This document shows, in pieces, positions 17,204 through 43,370 of a DNA stretch of 50,861 nt (the stretch's first letter is position 1; each line of letters begins with the position of its first letter). The stretch lies in contig DVKM01000068.1 of NCBI GenBank assembly GCA_018716015.1, positions 1 to 50,861 of the forward strand, given 5' to 3'. The position numbers and the translations under genes are program-made. This DNA is from Candidatus Enterenecus stercoripullorum (GTDB taxonomy: Bacteria > Bacillota > Clostridia > Oscillospirales > Oscillospiraceae). The notes below the pieces were generated by a model that did not search any database, was not told the origin of the DNA, and saw only the letters and a list, made by a program, of their open reading frames with translations.

Positions 17204-17577
17204 TCTTTTAGCCCCCTTTCCAATGGCTAAAAAAGGTTGATTGTTGCAAAAGGAGCCATAACGGACGGCTGTTGGCGCAGCTCCACGGGACTTTCACCCC
17301 CGCGTGGTTCTCACGCGGCCCTACCCATCGCCTGCGACGCTTTTAACGCTCGGACTGTGGCTATAGGGGAGCATCGCCCGCTTGTGTGTCGTCGCCCGCA
17401 AGCTGTCACACTTGCTTTCCGGCGCGGTGTTGGTCGCTCCGCTTTTCCCGTAGGGAAAAGCCTCTTGGCGCATCTGCCGTATGGCTCGGCACAGACGAAA
17501 AGTGTCCGTTTTGCCCTATGATGCGCCGCCGTTATCTTGCGGGCATTTTTGTCAAAGTGCAGCCTACGGCCTCCGGG
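17204..17577 (-). other. Structured non-coding segment of the element
   Basis: These 374 bases between xis and the HTH gene have no convincing reading frame. On the minus strand they contain several tight hairpins, including CTTTTCCC-GTA-GGGAAAAG (17442-17460) and GCGTG-AGAAC-CACGC (near 17304-17318), the latter followed by GGGGGTGAAAGTCCCG. This suggests a folded RNA leader or origin-type structure of the element. It is inferred, not established. Confidence 0.45.
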
Positions 17578-20912: not shown

Positions 20913-22172
20913 TCAGCACTTCTCAAAGATGGTGGCAACGCCCATGCCGCCTCCGATGCACAGGGTGGCCAGGCCCTTCTTGACCTCGGGCCGCTTGGCC
21001 ATCTCGTGCAGCAGGGTGACGATGATACGGGCGCCGGAAGCGCCGACGGGGTGGCCGATGGAGATGGCACCGCCGTTGACGTTCACCTTGCTCATATCAA
21101 AGCCCAGCTCCCGGGCAACCGCGATGGACTGGGCAGCAAAAGCCTCGTTGGCCTCCACCAGGTCGATATCCTCGATCTTCAGGCCGGCCTTGGCCATGGC
21201 CTGACGGGAAGCGGGCACGGGGCCCACGCCCATGATCTTGGGATCCACGCCGCCCTGGCCCCAACTCACCAGCTTGGCCATGGGCTTCAGGCCATACTTC
21301 TCAACCGCCTCGCCGGAGGCCAGCACGATGGCGGCCGCGCCGTCATTGATGCCGGAGGCGTTGGCGGCGGTCACCCGCTGCACATGCTTGTGGGCGTCGT
21401 CCACGTGGACCTGGGCAGGCTCAAAGGTGTGAACGATCTCGTCCTCCACGCCGTCGGGGCCCACGGGGAAGGCCCCGCGCAGCTTGGCGATGCTCTCGGT
21501 GGTCACGCCGGCCTTGGGGTACTCGTCCACCTTAAACTCCACCATTTCCTTCTTCTTCTTGACCATCACGGGGACGATCTCAGCCTCAAACCGGCCCGCT
21601 TTCTGGGCGGCTTCGGCTTTCTGCTGGGAAGCGGCGGCAAAGGCGTCCTGCTCTTCCCGGGTAATGCCCCACACATCGTTGATGTTCTCGGCGGTGGTGC
21701 CCATGTGATAGTTGTTATAAGCATCCCATAGGCCGTCCTTGATCATGGTGTCCACCACTTTCTTATCACCCATGCGGGCGCCCCAGCGCTCATCGGGCAG
21801 CGCGAAGGGGGCGGCGGACATGTTCTCAGTGCCGCCAGCCACAATGACGTCCGCGTCGCCGGCCAGAATGGCCCGGGCACCCTCGATGACGGACTTCATG
21901 CCGGAGCCGCACACCATACCCACGGTATAGGCGGGCACGGAGTAAGGCAGACCGGCTTTCACACCTACCTGGCGGGCCACGTTCTGGCCCTGGGCAGCGG
22001 TGAGAATACAGCCGAACATCAGCTCATCCACCTGCTCGGGCTTGACCCCGGCGCGATTCAGAGCCTCCTTCACCACCACAGCACCCAGATCAGCAGCGGG
22101 GGTATCCTTCAGGGAACCGCCGAAGGAGCCCACTGCGGTGCGGCAGCAGTTGACAACATATACATCTCTCAT
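20913..22172 (-). CDS. thlA: Acetyl-CoA C-acetyltransferase (thiolase)
   Basis: Thiolase condenses two acetyl-CoA to acetoacetyl-CoA, or runs in reverse. The acylated Cys88 is in MVCGSGMKS, the catalytic His in [15 protein letters not shown], and the second Cys in [10 protein letters not shown]. At 419 residues it is about 27 longer than the usual ~392. The surplus is an insertion at about residues 237-266, between LRGAFP and [12 protein letters not shown], rich in His and Asp (VHVDDAHKH). The frame is intact and GGAGG precedes the ATG by nine bases. It has a good promoter and probably supplies acetoacetyl-CoA to the downstream CoA-transferase. Confidence 0.93.
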
Positions 22173-22253: not shown

Positions 22254-24878
22254 TTAAGCGGAGGTCTTATCCCTGGCGCGGCTGACGGCCTTGGTGATCT
22301 CGCTGATGATCAGCGGACACAGGCCCAGGCCGACCACGATAGCCCAGTCCTGAGCGGGCAGGTTGGTGATACTGAAAATAGACTGCAGGGGCGGAATGAA
22401 CAGCACGCATAGCTGCAGGCCCAGGCCCACCACGAAGGCGATGTTCATGGTCTTGTTGCTAAACAGGCCGATCTGGAAAATACTCCGCTTCTCGCTGCGC
22501 ACCGCGAAGGCGCGGGTCAGCTCGCAGAACACCAGGGTGGCGAAGGCCATGGTATTGGCGTAACCGTCGCGCATCACCGGATCAACCACGTCCCTGGACA
22601 GCACATACTCGCCCAGAGCATAGGCCAGCAGGGTAATGCCGCCCACCAGCACGCCGTAGAACACCATGCTCACGGCAAAGCCGTTGGCAAACAGACTGGC
22701 GCTGGGATCCCGGGGCTTCTGCTTCATCACGCCCGGCTCCACAGGCTCCATGCCCAGAGCCAAGGCGGGCAGGGAGTCGGTCACCAGGTTCAGCCACAGC
22801 AGCTGGATGGTCACCAGGGGCATCTGGCGGAAGTCCAGGGCGGTGGCCACGAACATGGTGATGATCTCGCCGATGTTGCAGCTGAGCAGATACTGGATGG
22901 ACTTTTTGATGTTGGAGTAAATGCCGCGGCCCTCTTCCACTGCGTGGACGATGGTGGCAAAGTTGTCGTCGGTGAGGATCATATCTGCCGCGCCCTTGGC
23001 CACGTCGGTCCCAGTGATGCCCATGGCGCAGCCGATGTCGGCAGCCTTCAGGGCGGGGGCATCGTTCACGCCGTCGCCGGTCATGGCCACCACGTTACCC
23101 TTGGACTGCCAGGCCTGCACAATGCGCATCTTATGCTCGGGAGACACACGGGCGTACACCGCGTACTTCTCCACGTTCTGCTCCAGGGTGGGCTGGTCCA
23201 TGGCGTCCAGGTCCTCGCCGGTGATGGCCAGGTCCCCGTCCCGGAAAATGTCCAGCTCCTTGGCGATGGCCACGGCGGTCAGCTTGTGGTCGCCGGTGAT
23301 CATCACCGGGCGGATGCCGGCGCCGTAGCACTCGGCCACCGCCTGCTTGACCTCCATCCGGGGCGGATCAATCATGCCCACCAGACCCACGAAGGTCAGC
23401 CCGTTCTCCAGCTCCTCGCTGGTCAGCTCGCCCTCGGGGATGCTGTCGATGTCCTTGTAGGCCACGCCCAGCACCCGCAGGGCCCGGGAGGCCATTTCCG
23501 CATTCTTGTCCAGCACCGTTTTCGCGGTTGCCTGGTCGATGACGCACCGCCCCAGCAGCACATCGGGGGCGCCCTTCACCATCACCCGGTGCTTGCCCTC
23601 GTTGGGGTGAATGGTGCTCATCAGCTTCCGCTCAGAGTCGAAAGGCAGCTCCGCCACACGGGGCATGGTCTTCTCGATCTCATTCTTGTCCAGCCCTTCC
23701 TTCACCGCGATGTCCACAAAGGCAGTCTCGGTGGGATCCCCGGCGGTCTTGGGAGAACCGTCCTCATTGTAGGTTAGCACCGTGTCGTTGCACAAAGAGC
23801 CAATGGTCAGCGCCAGGGCGCGCTCGCCCTCCTGCCGGGTCCACACCTCCACCACGGTCATCTTGTTCATGGTCAGGGTGCCCGTCTTATCCGAGCAAAT
23901 CACGCTGGCGCAGCCCAGGGTCTCCACTGCGGGCAGCTTCTTCACGATGGCGTTGCGCTTGACCATGCGCTGCACCCCCAGGGCCAGCACGATGGTGACT
24001 ACCGCGGCCAGGCCCTCAGGAATGGCGGCCACGGCCAGAGCCACGGCGCTCATGAAGATCTCCAGGATCTCCCGCTGATACAACAGGCCCACCACGAACA
24101 TGACCACGCACACGCCCAGGCAGATGACAGACAGCACCTTGGAGATCTCCGTCATCTTCTTCTGCAGCGGGGTCTCGTTATCCTCGTCGGTGGACAACAT
24201 CTGGGCGATACGGCCCACCTCAGTCTCCATGCCGGTTCCGGTGACCACGCAGGTGGCCCGGCCGTTGGTGATCACCGTGGAGGAGATGACCATGTTCTTC
24301 CGGTCGCCCAGCACGGTCCCCTCCGGCAGGGACGAAATAGCCTGCTTGCTCACGGGGACGGACTCGCCGGTCATCGCCGACTCGTCCGCCTTCAGGTTGG
24401 CCGACTCTAGGATACGGGCGTCGGCGGGCACCAGGTCGCCAGCCTCCAGCACGATGACGTCGCCAGGCACCAGCTTGTTGGTCTCCACCCGGACGATCTC
24501 GCCGCCCCGGATCACTTTCGCCAGGGGCGCCGACATCTTCTGCAGCGCTTCCAACGCCTTATTGGCGTTGTCCTCCTGGGTGATGGAGATCACCGTATTC
24601 ACCACCACGATCAGCAGGATGATCAGCGGCTCCACCCAGTCGGTGAAACCACTGGAAACATACGACACCACCGCAGCAGCCAGCAGCACGATGATCATGG
24701 GGTCCTTCAACTGCCCCAGGATCCGCTTGATCATGCTCTCCTGCTTGTGCCCCTCCAGCTCGTTGGGGCCGTACTTTTCCAGGCGGGCAGCGCTTTCCGC
24801 TCCAGACAGACCGGTTTCCCGGTCTGTCTGGAGCTCTTTCAATACTTCTTCTTCAGAAAGAGTATACCATGATTTCAT
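22254..24878 (-). CDS. Calcium-type P-type ATPase (P2A)
   Basis: An ATP-driven cation exporter of about 874 residues with the SERCA-like P2A layout. The actuator loop has MTGESVPV, the phosphorylated Asp is in CSDKTGTLTMNK and the hinge is TGDGVNDAPALK. Ca2+ ligands match SERCA site patterns: Glu in AAIPEGLAAVV (M4), Asn and Glu in CNIGEIITMF (M5), Asn and Asp in NLVTDSLPALALG (M6). This favours Ca2+ over Na+ or heavy metals, but transport has not been tested here. The ATG at 24878 is seven bases after AGGAG; a TTG three bases earlier is less likely. It follows atoE by 59 bp and is probably transcribed with it. Confidence 0.9.
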   Translation of the reverse strand: MKSWYTLSEEEVLKELQTDRETGLSGAESAARLEKYGPNELEGHKQESMIKRILGQLKDPMIIVLLAAAVVSYVSSGFTDWVEPLIILLIVVVNTVISITQEDNANKALEALQKMSAPLAKVIRGGEIVRVETNKLVPGDVIVLEAGDLVPADARILESANLKADESAMTGESVPVSKQAISSLPEGTVLGDRKNMVISSTVITNGRATCVVTGTGMETEVGRIAQMLSTDEDNETPLQKKMTEISKVLSVICLGVCVVMFVVGLLYQREILEIFMSAVALAVAAIPEGLAAVVTIVLALGVQRMVKRNAIVKKLPAVETLGCASVICSDKTGTLTMNKMTVVEVWTRQEGERALALTIGSLCNDTVLTYNEDGSPKTAGDPTETAFVDIAVKEGLDKNEIEKTMPRVAELPFDSERKLMSTIHPNEGKHRVMVKGAPDVLLGRCVIDQATAKTVLDKNAEMASRALRVLGVAYKDIDSIPEGELTSEELENGLTFVGLVGMIDPPRMEVKQAVAECYGAGIRPVMITGDHKLTAVAIAKELDIFRDGDLAITGEDLDAMDQPTLEQNVEKYAVYARVSPEHKMRIVQAWQSKGNVVAMTGDGVNDAPALKAADIGCAMGITGTDVAKGAADMILTDDNFATIVHAVEEGRGIYSNIKKSIQYLLSCNIGEIITMFVATALDFRQMPLVTIQLLWLNLVTDSLPALALGMEPVEPGVMKQKPRDPSASLFANGFAVSMVFYGVLVGGITLLAYALGEYVLSRDVVDPVMRDGYANTMAFATLVFCELTRAFAVRSEKRSIFQIGLFSNKTMNIAFVVGLGLQLCVLFIPPLQSIFSITNLPAQDWAIVVGLGLCPLIISEITKAVSRARDKTSA

Positions 24879-24937
24879 CAAAGGTCTCCTATCTTAGTTG
24901 ACGATTTACATACTGCAATTATTTTTGGGCCTCTGCG

Positions 24938-26305
24938 CTACCACATGATGGCCCAGACACCGAAGAAAATCAGCGTCAACACCACGAAGAAGACGATACA
25001 GTAACCCATGATATCCCTCATTTTCAGGCCTGCAATGCCCAGCAGAGGGATAGCCCAGAAGGGCTGGATCACGTTGGAGATCGTCTCGCCCGCAGTGAAG
25101 GCAATCACAAACTTGTTCGGCTCCAGTCCGACACTCAAAGCAGCCTCGCCCAGAGGACGGCCGGCCACCATGAAGATGCCGCCGGAGGAGGGGATGAAGA
25201 AGTTGATGATGGCCATACAGAAGTAGCACAAGTAGGGGAAGGTGGCGGTGGTAGAGCCGTCGGCAAAGACATTGGCGATCAGCGCAACCAGGCCGGAGGC
25301 CTCCATCATGCCCTGGATACCAGCGTAAAATGGGAACTGGAGCAGCACACCGTAGGCGCTGCGCACCCCTTCCTCCGCGGCGGTGAGCAGGTTGCGGGGA
25401 GAGCCATGGCACAGGATGCCGATCATCAGCAGCAGGAAATTCATAATATCCAGGTTCAAATCGAAACCTTCTCTGGCAAAGTAGATGACCAAGTAGATGA
25501 TACCGGCGATGCCGATGAGGGTGGTAGTAATCCAGCTGTTGTCCACCCGCTCGGCAAAGGTCATGTCCTTCTTGCTCTTGCGGTTGGCCTTCAGCTCGCG
25601 CACAGCCTCCTCCTGAGCCAGGAAACGGTCTAGAATATCCTTGGGCATCTCGGGGGTGTCCTTGGGGGAGGTGTGGATCAGGGCAGCCAGCAGGGGCACC
25701 ACGATGATCATACCCAGCAGCTGCTGGATGAGCATGGACGGCTCGAACACGGTCTGGCTCAGGGGAATCAAGCCCAGCAGGTCCTCCAAGAAGTAGCCGT
25801 CGGTGTTGACCAGCAGAAACTCAGAGCCGGAGATGCCGAACAAGCCGCAGCTGATGGCGCCGGTGTAGGCCACGGCCACATACAACTTAAAGTCCACCTT
25901 GCGCAGGTTCAGCGCCACGGAACGGGCTAAAATGGCGCCGGCCACCAGACCCAGCCCCCAGCTGATCCAGCCCAGGATGGCGCTGGCAATGCCGATGAAA
26001 ACCACACCTTGCACGCCGTTCTTGGGGATCCTGCACAGCCGGATCAGCCCCCGCTTGATGATGGGGGCCTCGGATACGATATAACCGGTGGCGATGATCA
26101 TGGCCATCTGCATGGAGAACTCCAGGAATTCCCAAAAACCGTCGCCCCAGTAGGTAATCATGTCCAGAGGGCCGGACTCCGTCAGAATAAGGCCCATGAT
26201 AAAGGTAATAAACGTCAGTACGAAGGCCAGTACAATTGCGTCCGGCAGAACCTTATCCATGCCGAAATTCAGCGCGCCGGAAATCTTCCTCAATGCCTTA
26301 CGCAT
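24938..26305 (-). CDS. atoE: Short-chain fatty acid transporter, AtoE family
   Basis: A polytopic carrier of 455 residues with about eleven to twelve hydrophobic segments, assigned to the short-chain fatty acid transporter family (SCFA_trans). Supporting segments are the N-terminal LPDAIVLAFVLTFITFIMG, the central FAERVDNSWITT, and the late IPSSGGIFMVAGRPLGEAA. In E. coli AtoE imports short-chain fatty acids alongside AtoDA CoA-transferase and AtoB thiolase; here all three functions lie within 7 kb. Whether this organism takes up or exports butyrate or acetoacetate cannot be decided. GAGGAGG precedes the ATG at 26305. Its consensus promoter lies about 565 bp upstream, leaving a very long structured leader. 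Confidence 0.88.
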   Translation of the reverse strand: MRKALRKISGALNFGMDKVLPDAIVLAFVLTFITFIMGLILTESGPLDMITYWGDGFWEFLEFSMQMAMIIATGYIVSEAPIIKRGLIRLCRIPKNGVQGVVFIGIASAILGWISWGLGLVAGAILARSVALNLRKVDFKLYVAVAYTGAISCGLFGISGSEFLLVNTDGYFLEDLLGLIPLSQTVFEPSMLIQQLLGMIIVVPLLAALIHTSPKDTPEMPKDILDRFLAQEEAVRELKANRKSKKDMTFAERVDNSWITTTLIGIAGIIYLVIYFAREGFDLNLDIMNFLLLMIGILCHGSPRNLLTAAEEGVRSAYGVLLQFPFYAGIQGMMEASGLVALIANVFADGSTTATFPYLCYFCMAIINFFIPSSGGIFMVAGRPLGEAALSVGLEPNKFVIAFTAGETISNVIQPFWAIPLLGIAGLKMRDIMGYCIVFFVVLTLIFFGVWAIMW

Positions 26306-26866
26306 ACATGTTGTCCTCCTCTTTTTTCTATGATTTCAGGGGTCTCACCACCCGCACCAGGAAGCCGAAGCTGGGAAAACACCTCCTATGTCTTGAATTT
26401 GCGCGTGGCGCCAACACCTCAGGACCGTTGTGGGCCCTCCCCTATGAGGCCAGAGCAAAAGATACCGAAAGCGAACCTCTCTCTACGGAGCCATCAGCTC
26501 CCGTGCAGCCCGCTGCCGGAAAGCCGGTCCGCCCCTCCCTGCAGCCCCAAAAGGCATCTAACGCGCAAAGGGCTTCCCTCTGCACGCTCTCGCCGACAGC
26601 CGGTCTAGCTTTTCCAAGCCAGCATCATTTTACTCTTTTGGTACGAAAAGGCACACCTTTGAGCAGAAAAGACCCGCTCAGCAGGGCACTCATGTGAAGA
26701 ATCGCGCTGCCGAACAGGTCTCTGCGTTTCAGGCGGACCCGATCTGTGGGAGTGTCCCGCAGATGTCTTGACGAATCCGTCTCGTACCAAAAGAGGCACG
26801 ATGCATACTCCCCTATCCATCTTTTCAGAGAGGGTTTTCCGTACTGAAAGAGGTTTCTTAACGTTT
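26306..26866 (-). ncRNA. Long structured leader or independent RNA upstream of atoE
   Basis: About 560 nt lie between a perfect promoter and the atoE start codon without a credible gene. The minus-strand RNA has dense local pairing. A 14-bp closing helix (26782-26795 with 26633-26646) surrounds a multi-hairpin domain that includes GACG-GAUU-CGUC (26770-26781), AUCUG...CAGAU with an inner GGGA/UCCC (26742-26764) and AAAGG-UGUG-CCUUU (26647-26660), which stacks directly against the closing helix. A second half holds CCGG-CUUU-CCGG (26516-26527), a bulged ACGG/CCGU-GAGC/GCUC stem (26485-26504) and further GC helices. I cannot match it to a known riboswitch, RNase P, tmRNA, SRP or 6S consensus. 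Confidence 0.6.
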
Positions 26867-26870
26867 CGAA

Positions 26871-26899
26871 ATTATATCACGTTATGGCTCTTTTGTCAA
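26871..26899 (-). promoter_or_regulatory. Consensus sigma-A promoter upstream of atoE
   Basis: Minus-strand TTGACA (26894-26899), exactly 17 bp, TATAAT (26871-26876). Both hexamers are perfect matches. TTTCGAAACG overlaps the last -10 base and extends to the start site. Confidence 0.9.
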
Positions 26900-43342: not shown

Positions 43343-43370
43343 TTGACAATCTCGCCGCTGCCGGTATAAT
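43343..43370 (+). promoter_or_regulatory. Promoter for the EIIC-like permease
   Basis: Perfect TTGACA (43343-43348), 16-bp spacer, perfect TATAAT (43365-43370). The next 35 bases are a perfect palindrome that begins with the last base of the -10 box. Confidence 0.85.

Follow-up and report, generated by a model that had tools for sequence, protein, structure and literature searches.

A divergent yybP-ykoY riboswitch, very probably a Mn2+ ON-switch, ahead of a carrier-pump operon in Candidatus Enterenecus stercoripullorum

A long leader separates a consensus promoter from atoE

What is encoded in the interval of about 560 nt that lies between a strong promoter and the atoE gene of Candidatus Enterenecus stercoripullorum? 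We analyzed contig DVKM01000068.1 (assembly GCA_018716015.1) over its full length of 50,861 nucleotides, hereafter the window. On the minus strand, the promoter is followed by the leader, atoE, a P-type ATPase gene and a thiolase gene (Table 1). The consensus promoter that a first-pass annotation had described, TTGACA-17-TATAAT, lies at 26899-26871, matches in all 12 positions and has a TG preceding the -10 box. Exact TTGACA/TATAAT sites occur twice in the whole window and in none of 100 shuffles, and the leader promoter is also kept in G041, a sister species from the same genus. The other exact match is located at 43343-43370 on the plus strand, with a spacer of 16.

The pump obtained its top NCBIfam score with the PMR1-type model (755.9, under that model's cut-off of 798.3), and it scored 537 with the PMCA-type model, over the cut-off of 507.05. 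As the annotation had held, there is no credible gene ahead of atoE: a Pfam search at E<=0.1 gave nothing for the four ORFs of the interval, and a decayed protein gene was rejected on this ground. Elsewhere in the window, a pemK RNA (RF02913) is found at 17283-17375 on the minus strand, with 41.3 bits, over the gathering score.

The annotation had offered two readings of the leader, a new structured RNA of about 560 nt or a large sensor controlling a short-chain fatty acid carrier and a calcium pump. The second was essentially right, as we found an aptamer of the yybP-ykoY type. Our results make it very probable that the leader carries a divergent yybP-ykoY Mn2+ riboswitch of the ON type ahead of the carrier-pump operon. 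In place of a candidate new large RNA stands a testable function, that of a Mn2+ ON-switch governing a carrier-pump operon of gut Oscillospiraceae. Of interest are this operon, a gap in Rfam and an additional pairing within the leader, here called anti-P2.

Table 1. Features of the leader and its operon (window coordinates; paired strands of a helix are separated by a slash)
Feature	Position	Strand	Evidence or remark
Promoter TTGACA-17-TGATATAAT with extended -10	26871..26899	-	12/12 consensus match
yybP-ykoY-type aptamer	26712..26818	-	R1 and R2 matches, covariation, core residues
P1.1	26812-26818/26712-26718	-	aptamer outer helix
L1	26806-26811	-	aptamer loop
P1.2	26803-26805/26723-26725	-	aptamer helix
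P2	26795-26801/26782-26788	-	aptamer helix
P3	26773-26779/26734-26740	-	aptamer helix
L3, UCAAGAC	26765..26771	-	adenosine column present in 39/40 rows, one gap
Terminator-like hairpin, 15 outer pairs, then UUUCUGC	26670..26721	-	-31.3 kcal/mol; all 15 outer positions pair
Anti-P2 segment	26633..26646	-	perfect 14-bp complement of 26782-26795; reached in 0/60 and 0/200 shuffles
Remaining leader	26306..26632	-	no structure beyond base composition (z -0.9 for 26321-26666); ORFs without protein family
atoE, short-chain fatty acid transporter	24938..26305	-	PF02667, E 7.9e-118
P-type ATPase, calcium/manganese-type	22254..24881	-	NCBIfam model scores
Thiolase	20913..22172	-	downstream of the P-type ATPase

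Relatives of the leader share a yybP-ykoY core

A DNA comparison with 99 genomes recovered the whole leader in G041 only, at 90%, while the first 228 of the 611 query bases were also present in genomes G003 and G035, at 73%; the two other matches covered fewer than 40 bases each. In G003 and G035 the leader lies directly ahead of the P-type ATPase gene, with no intervening atoE. A scan of 395 relatives of G041 returned only these three genomes at E<=1e-6, and the window type is therefore known here from five sequences. The same core is found in Candidatus Intestinimonas stercoravium (L015), where by eye it is followed by a terminator with nine T.

The core common to window-type leaders reads GGGGAGUAUGC...GUCAAGAC or GUCAUCAC...CGG...GCAGAGACC. 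It was this core that suggested a yybP-ykoY Mn2+ riboswitch, and membership in the class was tested afterwards. The annotation had recognized no common riboswitch motif, which was a mistake, as GGGGAGUA in L1, GUCAAGAC in L3 and the closing GAGACC form the yybP-ykoY core. The window leader retains both conserved loops, and adenosine 26769 in L3 is the equivalent of A41 in L. lactis and A48 in X. oryzae, described as contacting Mn2+ through N7 in crystal structures (PMC6754395, PMC9190785). In the alignment of 40 sequences presented below, the GGAGUA of L1 is intact in 39 rows, the exception being a gap, and the Mn-contacting adenosine is as widely kept (Table 1).

The window shares with known members of the class (RF00080; L. 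lactis yoaB, X. oryzae and E. coli mntP) the P1.1/L1/P1.2/P2/P3/L3 layout, the GGAGUA, the L3 adenosine, the GAGAC closing strand, a hairpin competing with P1.1, and exporter genes downstream. It differs from them in being unreported by the Rfam model, in a P1.2 that starts with U-A, in that no P4 helix was seen, in the atoE gene that separates switch from pump, and in the anti-P2 segment.

Homology and covariation place the aptamer in the class

We built two models. R1 draws solely on the five window-type sequences, that of the window and those of four relatives, and R2 on 40 matches. With R1, the mntP leaders of four other members of the genus (L021-L024) all matched, at E-values between 1.1e-7 and 5.7e-6; RF00080 gives these same leaders about 30-36 bits, below its cut-off of 45. 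R2, whose E-values are rough and which includes sequences from some of the scanned genomes, matched the mntP leader of E. coli (E 4.9e-5), and L1, L3 and the closing GAGACC were aligned in register. The E. coli alx region had no R2 match, and R1 matched neither the mntP nor the alx region. The leader is thus homologous to accepted yybP-ykoY members, through R1 to four mntP leaders and through R2 to E. coli mntP, not alx.

The 40-row alignment had been fitted to the R1 structure. Two-sided changes are seen in it at 21 of 25 pairs, a number that none of 500 shuffles reached, and 94.6% of cells are paired, versus 28-43% in slid controls; the poorly aligned rows L096, L045 and L040 were retained in all of these counts. 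The five window-type rows alone have two-sided changes in 2/25 pairs, as many as 285 of 500 shuffles reach, so it is the wider family that provides the covariation evidence. An R1 family scan at E<=0.1 gave 17 matches in 16 of 400 genomes; six of these matches (L041-L044, L046 and L047) were discarded since they are without the GGGAGUA core and look like chance.

A hairpin competes with P1.1 of the aptamer

Directly visible in the window is a terminator-like hairpin (Table 1) that overlaps the 3' strand of P1.1 and is followed by a weak U-tract. By computation, the fold with the hairpin has -70.9 kcal/mol, versus -63.6 kcal/mol when the aptamer helices are enforced. In L. lactis, Mn2+ is described as stabilizing P1.1 against a competing hairpin of this type (PMC11087558). 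By analogy with the class, we infer Mn2+ as the ligand, the ON direction, termination at the hairpin and the substrate of the pump. In our model, transcription would start near 26865, and the aptamer would be made first. With sufficient Mn2+, L1 and L3 would dock around the metal and hold P1.1; the hairpin, which needs the 3' strand of P1.1, would then not form, and transcription would read through into atoE and the pump gene, whose product would export excess Mn2+ and/or Ca2+. In the absence of Mn2+, formation of the hairpin would stop transcription.

The aptamer could also be real and its platform something other than an intrinsic terminator, involving Rho or translation, or the switch could be decaying. 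The tail in the window is UUUCUGC, leaders L003 and L004 carry a comparable hairpin without a U-tract, and sister leaders such as L099 have longer T runs past the hairpin, all of which would fit such a platform. Against it, the aptamer and the hairpin are identical to those of G041 at 102/107 and 43/45 aligned bases, respectively, versus 269/313 in the remaining leader, and the 15 outer hairpin pairs are kept in both the window and G041. We consider this alternative unlikely and retain termination at the hairpin as the probable platform.

Structure is confined to the promoter-proximal part of the leader

The whole leader folds better than its own shuffles (z -5.67). This, together with a 14-bp helix, is what speaks for a large structured RNA of a new kind, about 560 nt long. 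The surplus stability, however, is located in 26667-26866 (z -4.9), while 26321-26666, towards the 3' end, has a z of -0.9. In the latter segment, 30 of the 44 substitutions relative to G041 fall at paired positions (228 of 346 positions are paired in the predicted fold), and of its 114 predicted pairs 10 break and two stay paired by two-sided change. The second structured domain of the annotation finds no support here, as the differences from G041 do not avoid paired positions. Given in addition that the full length is common to G041 only among the 99 genomes searched, and that a known class explains the 5' part, a new large RNA is extremely improbable. The structured part spans about 150 nt, comprising aptamer and hairpin, and its core, fold, covariation and gene context assign it to a known riboswitch class; most likely it is an ordinary Mn2+ ON-switch and a divergent class member rather than a new kind of RNA.

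The perfect 14-bp helix of the annotation, 26633-26646 with 26782-26795, is real; the longest helix in 60 dinucleotide shuffles had 10 bp. With G-U pairs allowed, it extends to 16 bp, in G041 as in the window. Its upstream strand comprises the P2 loop and 3' arm together with the final base of the 5' arm, so the helix cannot coexist with P2. In G003 and G035, where the P2 letters differ, 9 bp can form between the P2 3' arm and a downstream segment, at an offset of 176 versus 170-172 and with a shuffle frequency of 0.02 versus 0/200 for the window. With 25 leaders examined, a frequency of 0.02 would carry little weight by itself; what makes it a lead is that place and distance match. Among the other 21 leaders (L015, 13 of pump genes, five of mntP and two of Na/Ca exchanger genes) the lowest shuffle frequency was 0.09, and in L015 the shuffle test revealed no anti-P2 complementarity. 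The window with G041 and G003 with G035 may thus keep the pairing with different letters. Tentatively, the anti-P2 segment could be a second switching element, kept in these two lineages, that invades P2 through its loop and dismantles the aptamer after readthrough, supplementing or replacing the weakened terminator, although we regard this as doubtful. A platform of this kind, if the pairing is functional, would be unusual within the class.

The switch goes with metal exporters in the genus

With R2, the element was found upstream of mntP in 16 of 20 stretches of the genus and at 18 of 30 pump loci; nine of these 34 context matches lie outside the model alignment (L061, L066, L068-L070, L076, L077, L088 and L093). 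Twelve pump loci were unmatched; L078 and L079 are those of the window and G041, where the aptamer lies beyond atoE and outside the locus. The window's own genome also bears the aptamer in its mntP leader (L058). In contrast, the element was absent at all 10 other atoE loci of the genus (L151-L160) and at five of five further atoE loci (L016-L020), which rules out atoE as the conserved target, and it precedes atoE in three genomes only, those of the window, G041 and L015. The switch thus accompanies the pump, and in the window's lineage atoE seems to have come between the two later. The association with metal exporters is thus observed both in the window, as a P-type pump in the operon, and in the genus, as mntP and pump leaders.

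Upstream of other pump copies, none of 10 stretches (L108-L117) matched the element; four of these belong to second copies in G000, G041, G003 and G035, and six to the best copies of other genomes. The second copies (G000:C49, G041:C9, G003:C10 and G035:C38) are 67-71% identical to the window's pump, and no aptamer was found upstream of them, all four genomes having a window-type switch.

A switch ahead of a Ca-type pump could have kept the fold and recognize another ion, for example Ca2+. Window-type sequences do form a group of their own (R1 scores of 93-127 bits versus at most 57 for others), their relatives in the family also precede Na/Ca exchanger and OadB genes, and the yybP-ykoY switch ahead of the Mn/Ca pump gene mgtA in S. 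pneumoniae is called Mn/Ca-sensing (PMC11434433). On the other hand, the window retains L1 and the Mn-contacting adenosine, and its L3, UCAAGAC, is close to the UCAAUUC of L. lactis. A change of ligand is accordingly quite improbable, and Mn2+ remains the preferred ligand. By description, not by sequence, the mgtA system resembles the window in having a class switch before a Mn/Ca P-type pump, and differs in that the pump is described as directly downstream of the switch.

Elsewhere in the family and order, the same aptamer type was present before Na/Ca exchanger genes (L034 and L037). It was also seen before genes for OAD_beta (L035 and L132), Band_7 (L038 and L045), NfeD (L039) and a Na/Pi cotransporter (L146); for L036, L040, L123 and L141, likeness was judged by eye only. 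One would not expect a Mn2+ switch to have sodium-linked targets such as OAD_beta. The Na+-I (DUF1646) riboswitch was set aside, having no Rfam match in the window interval (E<=10) or in L035 and L036 (E<=1).

The Rfam model appears to under-report the class

The annotation had proposed a search with Rfam models, in which a match to a known family would rename the RNA. No model reached its gathering score on the leader interval, E<=10 gave three weak matches to vertebrate lncRNAs on the opposite strand, and RF00080 had no match at E<=10 in the window leader, L003 or L015. The silence of RF00080 is weak evidence, since the E. coli K-12 mntP leader (L147, 962-1058) scores 41.6 bits, below the gathering score of 45, and E<=1 yields no match in the alx region. 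Among 60 relatives, nine match RF00080 at E<=1 and none exceeds the cut-off. Of 394 genomes of the order, some of which supplied sequences to the model, 149 match R2 at E<=0.001. Set against the 0/60 of RF00080, this suggests that the current Rfam Mn model under-reports the class.

A further Rfam family, RF02617 (SSRC10, 'Streptococcus sRNA 10'), matches L024 at 1506-1623 with 43.6 bits (cut-off 56). This match spans the aptamer and terminator of an mntP leader and overlies the RF00080 match; SSRC10 is, however, filed as an sRNA and, at E<=10, does not match the window interval. In S. pyogenes, SSRC10 is described as preceding a putative calcium transporter (PMC3675131), and it may represent the RNA that a yybP-ykoY riboswitch yields on termination.
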